From positions 1 to 64,000 of the forward strand of contig JAJFUB010000114.1 in NCBI GenBank assembly GCA_021372615.1: 64,000 nt of DNA. Reading direction: 5' to 3'. The notes below the pieces were generated by a model. It saw only the letters and a program-made list of their open reading frames with translations, was not told the origin of the DNA and did no database searches. This stretch comes from a bacterium (GTDB lineage: Bacteria > Armatimonadota > Zipacnadia > Zipacnadales > UBA11051). Made by a program: the position numbers and the translations under genes. Of the stretch, positions 19,422 to 43,784 are shown piece after piece (within the stretch, counting starts at the first letter, position 1; each line of letters starts with the position of its first letter).

Positions 19422-20243
19422 ATGGGCGACGCCGTTGGTCAAGGCGTCGAGGTGATCACTGTGAGACAGACTCTCCCGCTTGCGCTGCTTATCATCATCG
19501 CCCTGAGCTTGCTGCCCGCTCCCGGCACCGCGGCCGTCAACCTCGCCGTGGGCATGAGCGCCTCTGATGTCAGTCTGGGCGAGGCGCTGCTGGTGGCCGG
19601 CATCGCCTCCTTCCTGGGCTTCGACACCACGGTTGTTGTGCACTACCACAGCGACGTCAGACTGCCGCTGTCGGGTGTTCTGACCACGCTCCTGTTCTCC
19701 CGGATGCTCGACGCCGACCACCATCGGCTCGCGGCCTGGCGGTCGCAGGGACGCGGCTGGGGCCAGATCGCCCACGACCTGGGCGTCCATCCCGGTGCCT
19801 TCAACAAGCTGCGCAAGGGCCTGGACATCGGCTCCATGCGCGATGACGACTTCGAGCGCCTGGTGGTGGTGTGGACCCTCTCGCGGTACTACGGTGTCGG
19901 GGAGGACCGCGTGCGGGGCTGGCAGCAAGCCGGCACCCCCCTCCTCGGTGTGCTGATTGCGCTGGACCTCGGCGCCAAGTCACACCGTTCCGTGAGCGAT
20001 CTGCTCAAGGCGCGTCGGTCGCTGCATTCCTGGAATGCGGTGGCCGACAAGGTCGGGGTCGGCAAGAGCGCGCGCAAGCGCCCGCAGAAGCCCAAGGGCG
20101 GCCAGGAGTTCCGGGGCCATGCCTCCGGGGCCACGGCCGGTGGCGGCCAGGGCAACGCCGCGGGCCAGGGCCATGGTCAGGGTCAGAGCCACGGGCAGGG
20201 CCAGGGCCACGGACAGGGCAAGGGCAAGGCCAAGGGCCACTGA
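19422..20243 (+). CDS. Exported protein with Gly/Gln/His-rich C-terminal tail
   Basis: This 273-residue protein has an N-terminal hydrophobic export signal (LPLALLIIIALSLLPAPGTA). The body has helical segments around GWGQIAHDLGVHPGAFNKLRKG and ends in about 35 residues of Gly-Gln-His-Gly repeats with Lys, low in complexity and able to bind metal or nucleic acid. I do not recognise the family. The start at 19422 has GGGAGGG. The neighbour downstream is a lipoprotein gene 62 nt away in the same direction. Confidence 0.7.
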   Translation: MGDAVGQGVEVITVRQTLPLALLIIIALSLLPAPGTAAVNLAVGMSASDVSLGEALLVAGIASFLGFDTTVVVHYHSDVRLPLSGVLTTLLFSRMLDADHHRLAAWRSQGRGWGQIAHDLGVHPGAFNKLRKGLDIGSMRDDDFERLVVVWTLSRYYGVGEDRVRGWQQAGTPLLGVLIALDLGAKSHRSVSDLLKARRSLHSWNAVADKVGVGKSARKRPQKPKGGQEFRGHASGATAGGGQGNAAGQGHGQGQSHGQGQGHGQGKGKAKGH

Positions 20244-21483: not shown

Positions 21484-22203
21484 ATGCGGTCCATCTCACG
21501 AGGGTTCACGCTGATTGAGTTGCTGGTCGTCATCGCCATCATCGCCATCCTCGCGGCCATCCTGTTTCCCGTCTTCGCCCGCGCCCGGGAGTCGGCGCGC
21601 AAGTCCAGTTGCTCCTCGAACGTGCGGCAGTTGACGCTCGCATGTCTGTCGTACGCGCAGGACTACGACGAGTTGCTGCCCTGCGACTACTTCCCCGTCA
21701 ACCCACATACGCGGCTCATCGGGGAGATCCTGCCCTACATCAAGAACACTCAGATCCTGTACTGCCCTTCGGCCTCGAAGATGGTCAACACGCCCGACGT
21801 GGCCGCCACCGCCACCAACTTCGGCTACGGCAACATCAGCTACTACTACTACAGCTATGACAACAACCTCGTCACCGGCGCGCCGTGGGGCACGGTGCCA
21901 ACGACCATCCCGGGCGGCAGCACCGACGGGACCTCGACCTGGCTCGCCAAGGCCAGCGGCGGCTTCCTGACCGGCGGGGCCTTCGCCGGCGAGACGTACT
22001 ACAAGAACGGTCCGCGCATACTGTCAGTGGCCTCGGAGGGAACCAGCATTGCGGCTGCTGACATCTGGGTCTGGTCCGACCCCTTCTACGGCTCAGGCAA
22101 CTCCGTCAAGATCCACTCCGCCGCCTTCGGCTCCGTCAACGTCGGCTACCTGGACGGCCACGTGAAGTTCCAGCCGGGCCAGTCCAAGAATGTGTTCCAC
22201 TAG
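21484..22203 (+). CDS. Type II pseudopilin-like protein, DUF1559 style
   Basis: This 239-residue protein has leader MRSISRG, then [16 protein letters not shown] and [15 protein letters not shown]. It ends with the variant signature [16 protein letters not shown]. The central part, rich in Tyr and Gly, differs from the two paralogues at 3681 and 4535. It is expected to be cleaved by a prepilin peptidase not present in this window. The start at 21484 is fixed by the leader and AGGAG. A -10-like TACAAT (21440-21445) precedes it and a hairpin follows. Confidence 0.9.
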
Positions 22204-22294: not shown

Positions 22295-24034
22295 ATGCAC
22301 CCTCGTTCCCTGTTCCCCCTGGGCCTCGCCCTCAGCCTGGTCGTCGCCGCCGGCATGGGTCACGCCGCCTCGCTGAGCGACGCGGCCCGCCGCGGCGACA
22401 CGCGCCTCGTCGCGCGGTTGCTCGCGAGTGGCCGGCCCGTGGACTCGCGCGACGCCGACGGCATGACGCCCCTGCTCGTGGCGGCACGAGGCGAGCAGCC
22501 TGCTGTCGTGGCGCAGCTTCTCGCGGCGGGGGCCGACGTGGCGGCGACGGACCCGGCCGGCATGACCCCGCTCAACTGGGCCGTACGCGAGAACTGCCGC
22601 GCGGCCGCTGCCCTGCTCCTGGAGCACGGCGCCAAGTCGAGCGCCGTGCTGGCCGCGGGCCTGGGCGACCTCGCGGCGCTGCAGGGCTACCTCGCCGCCA
22701 GCCAGGCGGTGGACAGTCGCGACCCCCACGGGTGGACTCCGCTCATCATGGCCTCCCGCAACGGGCACACCGAAGTCGCGCGATGGCTCCTGGCGCACGG
22801 TGCCGCTGTGGACGCGCAGGACGACGCCGGGGAGACGGCACTCGCCAAGGCGGCCCGGCAGGCCCACCCGGCCGTCGGCCGGCTTCTACTCGCCCATGGC
22901 GCGGCCTACACCATTCACGCCGCGGCAGCCTTTGGGGACCTGGCGCGGGTCAAGCAGCTAGTCGCCAGGGGTACGCCCGTGGACGAGCAGGACGGGCGCA
23001 CCTGGACCGCCCTGATGATGGCCTGCCGCAACAACCGCCCGGAGGTGGCCGCATATCTCCTGTCGCGCGGCGCGGAGGCCAACATCCACTGTTACCACGG
23101 CGACAGCCCCCTGCATCAGGCGGCCGGGCAGGGCGCCGTGCCGACCGTGCGCCTGCTACTGGACCACTGGGCGCAGGTCAACACCCGCGATGAGGTCGGG
23201 CTGACGCCGCTGCACTGGGCGGCGCGGACCGGCCGCGGGGACGTCGTGGCGTTCCTGCTGCAGCATGGCGCCGACCCTCTCGCCCGCGGCCTCGGCGGGC
23301 TCTCGCCGGCCCGCGCGGCCCAGGACAACGGCCACCGCGAGGTCGCCCACCTGCTGCGCCAGGCGGCCGCCTCCCCGCGACAGCCCGCCGCGGCCGAGGA
23401 CTACAAGGCCCAACTGATCGGGCAGTACTCCTTCTACAAGACAGCGGTCGGCAGGTTCGCCCCGGTCTACCCGGCCCTGGCGCGCCAGATCGTGATGGAC
23501 TATGGCGTCAAGGACGGCATCTGCGTAGACCTGGGCGGGGGCTGCGGCTCGCTCTCGACGGCCCTGGTGAAGATCACGAACCTCAAGTCCTATGTGCTCG
23601 ACATTGACCCGGCGGCCGTGCGCCTGTGCGGACTGTTGGCCGTCGAGAACGGTCTGTCCGACCGCGTCATCCCCATCGAGGGCGATGCGATGGCCCTGCC
23701 CTTCGTGGACAACTTCGCCGATATCGTCATCAGTCGCGGCTCCATCTTCTTCTGGCCCAGCCAGGTGCAGGGGGTCAAGGAAGCCTACCGCATCCTCAAG
23801 CCCGGCGGGGTGGCCTACATCGGCGGGGGCTTCTCGCGGCTGATTGACAAGCAGATCCTCGACGGGCTCAAGGCTGACATCGTGGCCAACCGGGGCAAGG
23901 GCAGCGGCGGGTGGGTGCCACTGGAGCAAGACATGGTGGAGCAGTGCCGCAAGCTCGGCATCCAGCAGGTCCGCCTGCTGCACGAGCCGGACAACCTGCC
24001 TGAGCGCGGCTGGTGGGTCGAGGTGCGCAAGTAG
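22295..24034 (+). CDS. Exported ankyrin-repeat / SAM-methyltransferase fusion protein
   Basis: This 579-residue protein has three parts. Residues 1-24 are a signal peptide (LFPLGLALSLVVAAGMGHA). About eleven ankyrin repeats follow (25-360), with clear cores such as GWTPLIMASRNGHTEVARWL and GLTPLHWAARTGRGDVVAFL. A class I methyltransferase domain (about 365-579) has motif I VDLGGGCGSL at 411-420, acidic VLDIDP, and ILKPGGVAYIGGG. Methyltransferases are normally cytoplasmic because SAM is, so an export signal is odd. The start at 22295 has AGGACA. Two further exported proteins follow in the same direction. Confidence 0.85.
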   Translation: MHPRSLFPLGLALSLVVAAGMGHAASLSDAARRGDTRLVARLLASGRPVDSRDADGMTPLLVAARGEQPAVVAQLLAAGADVAATDPAGMTPLNWAVRENCRAAAALLLEHGAKSSAVLAAGLGDLAALQGYLAASQAVDSRDPHGWTPLIMASRNGHTEVARWLLAHGAAVDAQDDAGETALAKAARQAHPAVGRLLLAHGAAYTIHAAAAFGDLARVKQLVARGTPVDEQDGRTWTALMMACRNNRPEVAAYLLSRGAEANIHCYHGDSPLHQAAGQGAVPTVRLLLDHWAQVNTRDEVGLTPLHWAARTGRGDVVAFLLQHGADPLARGLGGLSPARAAQDNGHREVAHLLRQAAASPRQPAAAEDYKAQLIGQYSFYKTAVGRFAPVYPALARQIVMDYGVKDGICVDLGGGCGSLSTALVKITNLKSYVLDIDPAAVRLCGLLAVENGLSDRVIPIEGDAMALPFVDNFADIVISRGSIFFWPSQVQGVKEAYRILKPGGVAYIGGGFSRLIDKQILDGLKADIVANRGKGSGGWVPLEQDMVEQCRKLGIQQVRLLHEPDNLPERGWWVEVRK

Positions 24035-24123
24035 CCGCTCCGCGGGCGTCGTGGGAACGAAAGTGGGAAGGCCGTCGTTCTTGCCTGTAAGTGCCACATC
24101 AGGCCCACGCGAGGTGGACTCCC

Positions 24124-24999
24124 ATGCGTCTGGCAGCCCTCTGTAGTCTCAGCCTCCTGATCGTTGTCTTCCTCATTCTGGCGTTGACCTCAGGCGCCCT
24201 GGCCCAGCCGGCCGAGGGCAGCTACGGTCCGTGCTGCCCGCTGGTCAAGGGGCAGAAGGCCCCGACCGCGCAGACCTCGGCGACGGGCACGACACTGACC
24301 GGCCCCCGCTATGTCTGTGTGACCAAGCCCGTGCTGCTCACCGTCAACGGTGCCACCTACGGGGTCCAGGCCCTGGAAGTCACCGGGTCGCTGCTTACGC
24401 CTGTACGCCTGCTGACGATGGCCGGCGCCAACCTGGAGTGGGGCGGCGACCGGCATGTCGTGCTGACCCGCGGCGCACGTCGGGTGGAGCTGATGCTCGG
24501 CAGCCACGCGGTTACCATCTACGACGGCACGGACTCGCAGATGGTCTCCTGGCCGCTGTGCCCGCGGCTCATTCGCGGCATCAGCTATGCGCCGTTGCGG
24601 CCGCTGGCCGAGGCCCTCGGGCTGGTCGTGGCGTATGACAACGGGGCGGTGGCCATCACCGCGTCCGAGACGGGGGGTGGCCCCGCCGTTCCGACCGGAT
24701 CGTGCCCCGCTGACCGTGTGGACGCGGCGTTGGCAGTGACGGTGGTGCGCTCTCCCGCCGATAGCGCCTTCGGCGTCGGCGCCGGCATCGTTGAGGTCAA
24801 GCCCGGTGGCCTGGCCGAGAGCTTCGGCGTCCAGGCGAAGGATGTCATCATCGGTTGTGACGGCAAGCCGGTCAAGTGCCCCAAGGACCTGGATGATGCC
24901 CTGGCGCGACTGAAGCCCACGGGCGGGACCATCCAGACGCTGACTGTGGCCCGAGGCCAGGAGAAGGTGACGCTGCAGGCGAAGGCGGCGGGGCAGTAG
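24124..24999 (+). CDS. Exported Cu-amine-oxidase-N-like / PDZ protein
   Basis: This 291-residue protein has a long hydrophobic N-terminal signal or anchor (SLLIVVFLILALTSGALA). The middle (about 60-185) resembles the copper amine oxidase N-terminal stalk fold used in cell-surface proteins: VLLTVNGATYGVQALEV to ISYAPLRPLAEALGLVVAYD. The C-terminal part is a PDZ domain (FGVGAGIVEVKPGGLAESFG, then DVIIGCDGKPV). A Cys pair GPCCPL follows the signal. No protease domain is present. The ATG at 24124 is preferred over 24091 because it starts the signal sequence. Confidence 0.75.
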   Translation: MRLAALCSLSLLIVVFLILALTSGALAQPAEGSYGPCCPLVKGQKAPTAQTSATGTTLTGPRYVCVTKPVLLTVNGATYGVQALEVTGSLLTPVRLLTMAGANLEWGGDRHVVLTRGARRVELMLGSHAVTIYDGTDSQMVSWPLCPRLIRGISYAPLRPLAEALGLVVAYDNGAVAITASETGGGPAVPTGSCPADRVDAALAVTVVRSPADSAFGVGAGIVEVKPGGLAESFGVQAKDVIIGCDGKPVKCPKDLDDALARLKPTGGTIQTLTVARGQEKVTLQAKAAGQ

Positions 25000-25025
25000 G
25001 CGCCACACAGACGCGAGGAGTCGCC

Positions 25026-25808
25026 ATGGCAAGCAGAGCATGGGTCAGCGCGCTGGCGCTGCTACCGGCGCTGGCGTGGGCCGCGCCACAGCAGCAGGTC
25101 GCCATCCGCGCCTACATCAACGTCAGCAGCGGTTGTCAGGCCGAGACCGTGGACTTCCTCAACGCGCTGAAGGCCAAGCACAGACCTCATGTGTCACTGG
25201 AGATGGTTGACTTCGGGGACCGGGGCAAGGGCCTCAAGCGCTGGCAGCAGTCCGGCCATCGCTGCCTGACCATCGAGCTGAACGGCTCGGCGCTGGTGAA
25301 GTTCCCGTACGCGAGCAAGACACACGCGGTGGCCTTCCAGATGCCGGTGGGGTTCAACTGGACGCACGCCGATCTGGAGCATGCCGTGCAGGCAGGGCTG
25401 CAGGGGCAGTTGCGGCCGGCCACGGCCGCGGAAGTCGAGGCCGCCGCGCCGCCGCGCCAGATCCGGGCCACCGTCACCACGGGTGCGACGACCGTCAACG
25501 GGCGGCGTTGCGGCGTCGTCGCGATCAACGGCAACATTGCCATGTACATCCCCGGCGCACCGACCGCGGCCGCCAAACGGGCGCAGGCCGCCGCCGCCGC
25601 GCTGAAGAGCTGGCTGGCCAAGCCGGTCAAGATGTCGCAACTCACGACGCAGCCGGTCACGGGGGGATGGAAGTTCCTGGCCGGGGGCAAGGGCGTCATC
25701 ACGGCCACGGCCGCCGACGGCAAGGCCTTCGGTCAGTCGGCCCAGGCCGTGGCCGCCAAGTGGGCCTCGGGTGTGAAGTACGCCCTGGCGCGCGCGAACA
25801 TGCAGTAG
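25026..25808 (+). CDS. Exported thioredoxin-like protein, unknown function
   Basis: This 260-residue protein has a signal peptide (WVSALALLPALAWAA). The N-terminal part has a thioredoxin-like pattern: AIRAYINVSSGCQAETVDFL with Cys37 in a CxxE context, then GHRCLTIELNG. No CxxC is present. The C-terminal part is a repetitive alpha/beta region. The gene lies 26 nt after the PDZ gene with GAGGAG, so it is likely one operon. Its stop codon TAG is formed by the first bases of a dispersed inverted repeat. Confidence 0.65.
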   Translation: MASRAWVSALALLPALAWAAPQQQVAIRAYINVSSGCQAETVDFLNALKAKHRPHVSLEMVDFGDRGKGLKRWQQSGHRCLTIELNGSALVKFPYASKTHAVAFQMPVGFNWTHADLEHAVQAGLQGQLRPATAAEVEAAAPPRQIRATVTTGATTVNGRRCGVVAINGNIAMYIPGAPTAAAKRAQAAAAALKSWLAKPVKMSQLTTQPVTGGWKFLAGGKGVITATAADGKAFGQSAQAVAAKWASGVKYALARANMQ

Positions 25809-43061: not shown

Positions 43062-43784
43062 ATGAACATGCGTAGGTTGGTCATTCCGCTGGCGCTGGTC
43101 ATCGTGCTGGCGCTGGTCGTCACGACGGTCGTCGCACTCGCCCAATCGACTCCGGGGAAGCCCGGCTGCGGCATGAGAGCAGGCGCGGGTTGTGGCATGG
43201 GCGCGGGTGGCGGCTGTGGCATGAAGCCCGGCGGCGGCATGGGGATGGGACGAGGCTGCGGGATGCGGATGGGGGGCGGCTGCGGCATGATGGCCATGGG
43301 CCGGGGCCGGGTGGCCGCGACGACGCGGGCACTGGCGTCCGGGCAGGTCACCCTCGCCGCGACGCCACGCGGGCTGCTGCTGCTCGTGGCGGACAAGTCC
43401 CATCAGGGCGATGCCAATGCCTCGGTCAGCGCCACAGGCTCGGGCACGGGCAAGGATGTGGGCCTGAAGGCTGAGCGGATAGGCGCCGGGCGCTTTGCGC
43501 TGCAGGGCGATGTGTCAGGGGTCAACGAGATCGCCGTGCGTGTCACCAAGGGCGCGATCTCCGAGTTGGTCTACTTCGGCGTCCCGACTCTCGCGGCCCG
43601 TGGCGGGGGCTGCCCCGGCGGCCGCGCCGGCTGCAAGTGCGGCGATGCCTGCAAGTGCGCCAGCGGCGACAGGAGCGCCTGCAAGTGTGGCGCGGCGTGC
43701 AAGTGCGCGGCCTGCGGCAAGCAGGGCGCGGCGGCGAAGTGCGGCGCCGGCTGCAGGTGCGCGCGTTGTGGTGGCCAGAAGTAG
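43062..43784 (+). CDS. Exported protein with CGM repeats and metallothionein-like Cys tail
   Basis: This 240-residue protein has four parts. A signal peptide ends near residue 28 (ALAQ). Residues 34-83 hold five CGM motifs in Gly-rich sequence with several extra Met. Residues 84-178 are the beta domain shared with the preceding gene. Residues 184-236 hold 14 Cys, mostly as CKC or CxC pairs (CKCGDACKC, ACKCGAACKCAACG). Both Cys/Met regions suggest binding of soft metals such as copper(I), silver or cadmium outside the cytoplasm. An AT-rich -10-like TATATAAC precedes it, and a strong hairpin follows. Confidence 0.75.
   Translation: MNMRRLVIPLALVIVLALVVTTVVALAQSTPGKPGCGMRAGAGCGMGAGGGCGMKPGGGMGMGRGCGMRMGGGCGMMAMGRGRVAATTRALASGQVTLAATPRGLLLLVADKSHQGDANASVSATGSGTGKDVGLKAERIGAGRFALQGDVSGVNEIAVRVTKGAISELVYFGVPTLAARGGGCPGGRAGCKCGDACKCASGDRSACKCGAACKCAACGKQGAAAKCGAGCRCARCGGQK

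Follow-up and report, generated by a model that had tools for sequence, protein, structure and literature searches.

A predicted exported ankyrin–methyltransferase fusion points to a family of SAM-pocket proteins at the cell envelope of Candidatus Zipacnadia

An exported methyltransferase family, and not the three-gene cluster in which one member was noticed, is the finding worth following at this locus. In the window, that is, the whole 64,000-nucleotide stretch of DNA analyzed, a gene of an uncultured, metagenome-assembled Candidatus Zipacnadia bacterium (the class described in PMC10290634) encodes a 579-residue protein that joins a predicted Sec signal peptide, ankyrin repeats, and a class I S-adenosylmethionine (SAM) methyltransferase (MTase) domain. 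This fusion is best read as belonging to a branch of the class I SAM methyltransferases that has received little study, the relatives of MMP1179 (PDB 3dlc). Across a dataset of mostly metagenome-assembled genomes (46 in the class and 291 in the phylum), exported domains with a SAM-type pocket emerge as a conserved, lineage-wide family that gene order links to a single type of permease and, in several places, also to an exported methylase of unrelated fold; SAM use outside the bacterial cytoplasm therefore becomes a directly testable question.

The fusion gene (positions 22295–24034, + strand, as are the other genes of the locus) is preceded, across a gap of 92 bp, by a gene for a type IV prepilin-like protein (21484–22203), identified from the ORF list, the gene model, and its prepilin-type leader. 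It is followed after 90 bp by a gene for an exported Cu_amine_oxidN1 and PDZ protein (291 residues, 24124–24999, with an alternative GTG start at 24091; signal peptide 24124–24204) and, after a further 27 bp, by one for an exported thioredoxin-fold protein (260 residues, 25026–25808; signal peptide 25026–25082), beyond which the next gene lies on the opposite strand. Since the prepilin gene is directly upstream on the same strand, the four genes likely form one transcription unit. Elsewhere in the window, an exported 240-residue protein with abundant Gly-Cys-Gly-Met repeats is possibly metal binding (43062–43784), and a 273-residue protein ends in a His/Gln/Gly-rich repeat tail (19422–20243).

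Within the fusion, the predicted signal peptide (MHPRSLFPLGLALSLVVAAGMGHA; 22295–22366), with its cleavage site placed by eye, lacks a lipobox and has a heuristic score resembling those of exported homologues. About 11 ankyrin repeats follow, some degenerate and counted by eye (22367–23380; PF12796, PF00023, and PF13637; Ank_2 E 4e-59), and the MTase domain occupies the C-terminal part (23402–24031; PF08241, Methyltransf_11 E 1.5e-14). The architecture given in the initial annotation, a signal peptide, about eleven ankyrin repeats, and a complete SAM motif, was thus borne out by Pfam, by motif I, and by the signal-peptide heuristic. Legionella effector models that matched the ankyrin region were set aside, as they reflect shared ankyrin repeats alone and fall far below cut-offs. 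Judged from open-frame lengths and from loci that were read, the ankyrin–MTase combination was found in no other genome among the 291 of the phylum.

The nearest solved structure to the MTase domain by sequence is 3dlc (phmmer E 4e-32), and an AlphaFold model of the domain (pLDDT 95.9) superimposes on it with a VIA Z of 26.2 over 198 residues at 2.6 Å. Matches to the S-adenosylhomocysteine (SAH) complexes of UbiG and TleD reached Z 18–19, and the structural matches listed for the model are methyltransferase-fold proteins. The modeled domain has the class I Rossmann-like methyltransferase fold, with motif I DLGGGCG (DxGxGxG; 23528–23548) and the ribose and adenine acids D67 and D95 (domain numbering) in place. 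Structure prediction, proposed for the SAM pocket when the locus was first described, returned a confident class I fold, and in the sequence every SAM-contact motif is intact. By predicted fold and by motifs, the window domain is an intact class I MTase, for which SAM binding and methyl transfer are predicted.

Export is a trait of the family within the class. Homologues at E ≤ 1e-12 occur in 23 of the 46 genomes, and nearly all full-length relatives carry a predicted signal peptide with the domain directly after it, several of these peptides with a lipobox. For the fusion and its homologues, signal peptides were called with a hydrophobicity and cleavage heuristic (for the other two proteins of the cluster, by eye); the KD 11-mer value was 1.8–3.2 in full-length class homologues, as compared to at most 1.5 in cytoplasmic relatives. 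The same genome holds a second, free-standing copy on another contig (G000:C113), 48% identical and with its own signal peptide. In the domain tree, which is compatible with one or several export events, a clade of 25 exported members (support 100/99) contains the window domain, as does a subclade of 13 rows (98/91). Some relatives, in Bacillota, Chloroflexota, and Spirochaetota (L148, L149, L153, and L156), have no signal peptide, and their operons also encode metal-type or oligopeptide-type ABC transporters, DUF364/DUF4213, or signal-less SBP_bac_6 proteins; L153 and L156 are located in siderophore-type ABC operons. A cytoplasmic location is usual, if not strictly defining, for class I MTases, and the predicted signal peptides of the fusion and its close relatives argue for export. 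The initial annotation had seen a puzzle in an exported SAM-type domain and had suggested that export might not be as predicted; homologues without the signal peptide would have counted against its reading. The homologues carry one, and that way out is now unlikely, while the puzzle itself has proved real and wider than one protein.

The residues expected to contact SAM have been kept in exported members. The acid of motif I is present in 39 of 41 exported domains and its first glycine in all 41, the ribose acid in 40 of 41, and the adenine acid in 41 of 42. Because these two acids and the first glycine are nearly invariant, the SAM pocket is, on the evidence of the alignment, retained after export. 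Motif I has drifted in some exported members, with the second glycine intact in 29 of 41 and the third in 35 of 41 (e.g., SSCS); the SSCS and GSCS variants represent degeneration in one subclade, and further pocket residues are degenerate in fusions to PQQ propellers. Outside the pocket, the SRGS, GGG, and W-x-E-x-RK motifs are about as conserved in exported members as in cytoplasmic relatives.

An APC permease, an identity supported by Pfam, lies within two genes of an exported MTase at nine loci, as compared to 0 of 375 background genes. The genome under study encodes six APC permeases of this type, one of them adjoining the exported MTase on C113; the window locus itself has neither an APC permease nor a solute-binding protein (SBP) adjoining. 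With loci treated as unrelated, seven loci have an SBP_bac_11 gene within two genes of the MTase (P 2e-3), and 11 have a prepilin (P 7e-3). The signal is stronger for a same-strand prepilin immediately upstream, present at 6 of 19 MTase loci against a background of 4.5% (P 3e-6, again with loci treated as unrelated). A tetrapyrrole methylase (TP_methylase) with a signal peptide is found near the permease and MTase at four loci (G000:C113, G004, G249 [= L140], and G254), two of which also encode a multihaem cytochrome. On C113 this protein (74217–75248, − strand; L103 14218–15249) is a SAM methylase of class III, most similar to CbiF/CobM, and its neighbors are a prepilin, an APC permease, and the exported MTase of class I. 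Enrichment of TP_methylase within two genes of exported MTases was not significant, because in most loci it is three genes away. ArsP_1 permeases lie near an exported MTase in two genomes (G001 and G052). At L122 and L124 (G026 and G028), the exported MTase is flanked by two conserved membrane-type proteins, of which one has no Pfam match, and a CoA-dehydratase-activator-like gene was noted nearby by eye. No riboswitch that would indicate the ligand reached the gathering score in 19 sources. Neither of the two PNP/MTAN-type genes (PF01048) of the genome has a visible signal peptide, and so no exported SAH-removal enzyme of this type was found.

Exported MTase domains are also fused to other envelope proteins. 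In family f32 of the phylum, which includes Candidatus Hebobacteria (L150/L248), SBP_bac_11 is fused to the exported MTase domain, once or twice in tandem, near genes for a TonB receptor, an APC permease, ExbB, ExbD, and TonB. L248 308–7236 has the complete series, in the sequence receptor, fusion, permease, ExbB, ExbD, and TonB, and parts of the same operon are present at L245 5213–11555, L246, and L247 (ExbB, ExbD, and TonB named by eye). In Latescibacterota, an 894-residue protein combines a signal peptide, a class I MTase domain, and a TonB-dependent receptor (L155 2269–4953), with an Nramp gene adjoining. Large exported PQQ-propeller proteins contain a degenerate MTase domain (L130 3641–8290, L250 3095–7111, and L003 of the genome under study, the last read by eye), with malectin in L130 and L250 and CBM96 in L130. 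A tandem MTase–MTase protein with a signal peptide has a very divergent second domain (L115 8720–10033). Separately, two genes from a family MTase, SBP_bac_11 is fused to an outer membrane barrel of the alginate-export type (L244 10725–12995).

From the predicted fold, the conserved pocket, the export signals, and the neighbors, each directly supported, we infer a mechanism with five parts. The MTase domain would bind SAM (or SAH) outside the cytoplasm, and SAM would arrive via an APC-type permease such as those encoded beside the C113 paralogue and beside exported homologues elsewhere. A small molecule handled at the cell envelope would be methylated, with a metal chelate or a tetrapyrrole-like compound as the likeliest substrate; this choice is suggested by the fusion or linkage of relatives to SBP_bac_11, TonB receptors and ExbBD, Nramp, ArsP, and exported TP_methylase, and by the presence of cytoplasmic relatives in siderophore-type ABC operons. 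The ankyrin arm may dock a partner or the substrate, and the PDZ and thioredoxin-fold proteins may be envelope helpers recruited locally and not part of the core. Taken whole, this account of a Sec-exported periplasmic SAM MTase with an ankyrin arm, APC supply, a chelate or tetrapyrrole substrate, and local PDZ and thioredoxin helpers is tentative, with a little less than an even chance of being right in all its parts. The broader proposal that in Armatimonadota exported class I and class III MTases jointly methylate an envelope substrate, with a dedicated APC permease carrying SAM (and SAH), is possible but on balance unlikely.

The main alternative is that the exported domain is a non-catalytic receptor that would capture SAM, SAH, or a related adenosyl-containing molecule and pass it to the APC permease for scavenging. 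A conserved pocket, the frequent company of SBP_bac_11, TonB receptors, and the APC permease, and the lack of an exported SAH-clearing enzyme of PF01048 type would all suit such a receptor. However, conservation of SRGS, GGG, and W-x-E-x-RK beyond the pocket, at about the level of cytoplasmic relatives, counts against it, and a receptor would have no use for the exported TP_methylase of another fold at four loci. We consider a receptor unlikely, with perhaps one chance in a handful or slightly better.

Less probable again is the other way out named in the initial annotation, a different ligand: exported domains would hold, for example, a metal chelate or an oxyanion, with the SAM motifs as leftovers. 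Degeneration of motif I in the SSCS/GSCS subclade, and of more pocket residues in the PQQ fusions, speaks for this, but the ribose and adenine acids are kept in almost all exported domains and every motif is present in the window domain. Moreover, the permeases that travel with the exported genes belong to a superfamily that includes known SAM transporters (PMC5177730).

The two genes downstream of the fusion bear on whether the cluster is a system in itself. Their products match the description first given of them, an exported Cu-amine-oxidase-N/PDZ protein and an exported thioredoxin-like protein with single Cys residues. In the former, Pfam identifies Cu_amine_oxidN1 (E 5e-10) and PDZ_6 (E 1.5e-6) and a signal peptide was recognized by eye; it is neither a copper amine oxidase, as the N1 and PDZ domains were found by Pfam and the catalytic domain is absent, nor an HtrA/Do protease, as the PDZ part alone matches and the trypsin-like protease domain is absent. 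Its relatives are rare. The latter has no family in a Pfam search; its model has a thioredoxin fold at residues 22–128 (Z 10.4 to 1v98) and a C-terminal alpha/beta domain. In place of a CxxC active site, the alignment has SSGC, giving C37, together with an invariant C80. Since C37 is at the CxxC loop position and C80 is invariant, the two cysteines would more probably form a disulfide or bind a metal than carry out the usual thioredoxin chemistry. Members of this thioredoxin family are often lipoproteins whose genes follow those of a MacB-like ABC permease and an ATPase (L114, L117, L121, L131, and L133–L137; Pfam run on L114).

That the three genes constitute one dedicated exported system, as the initial annotation had proposed, is improbable. 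They share a strand with short gaps, PDZ and thioredoxin homologues are adjacent in G006, and in G041 and G001 a single contig carries MTase and thioredoxin homologues within 10 kb of each other, above a rough hand estimate of about 0.1 such pairs expected by chance over the class. Pairs alone recur in the class, however; the full trio was found in no other genome among the 46, so that the lack of co-occurrence elsewhere, named in the initial annotation as counting against its reading, largely holds, and for this reason a three-gene system is not supported. The frequent placement of the thioredoxin family behind a MacB-like transporter instead, and the rarity of PDZ relatives, also argue against it. 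That the fusion simply stays in the cytoplasm, its signal peptide misread, is very improbable indeed: the signal-peptide call rests on a heuristic and SAM is cytoplasmic, but signal peptides occur in dozens of homologues, several with a lipobox, and the domain is fused to exported TonB receptor, SBP, and PQQ domains.

SAM-dependent methylation of small molecules is regarded as cytoplasmic chemistry, since SAM is made and kept in the cytoplasm. A search of the literature for SAM methyltransferases that are periplasmic, exported, or secreted found no paper on a bacterial envelope family of this kind; work on “secreted methyltransferases” mostly concerns pathogens and their hosts. The company of a permease and a second methylase kept by the exported relatives suggests that methyl-transfer chemistry may run outside the cytoplasm too.

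Among known systems, the fungal SAM permeases Sam3 and Candida Gap4, the latter an amino-acid permease that transports SAM, share the amino-acid permease superfamily with the bacterial neighbors and offer a precedent for SAM carriage (PMC5177730). They are eukaryotic and distant, whereas the bacterial permeases best match the NCBIfam L-type amino acid transporter, below its cut-off. The exported TP_methylase has as its closest NCBIfam and PDB match the cobalt-precorrin-4 methyltransferase CbiF/CobM (1cbf, E 2e-10), from which it differs in having a signal peptide and in scoring below the NCBIfam cut-off. The arsenite methyltransferases ArsM, which are cytoplasmic enzymes, share the class I fold, and NCBIfam ArsM models match the window MTase weakly (E 4e-9); identity with ArsM was rejected, since the score of 35.9 bits falls far short of the curated 510-bit cut-off. 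AnkB of Pseudomonas, a periplasmic ankyrin protein that works with catalase, resembles the fusion in its exported ankyrin repeats and is without the MTase domain. MMP1179 (3dlc), which is a putative SAM methyltransferase from Methanococcus maripaludis, belongs to the same domain family, with the SRGS, YRxLKPGG, and GGG motifs common to both; relatives of this protein at L153 and L156 are without a signal peptide, whereas the window protein is predicted to be exported and is fused to ankyrin repeats.
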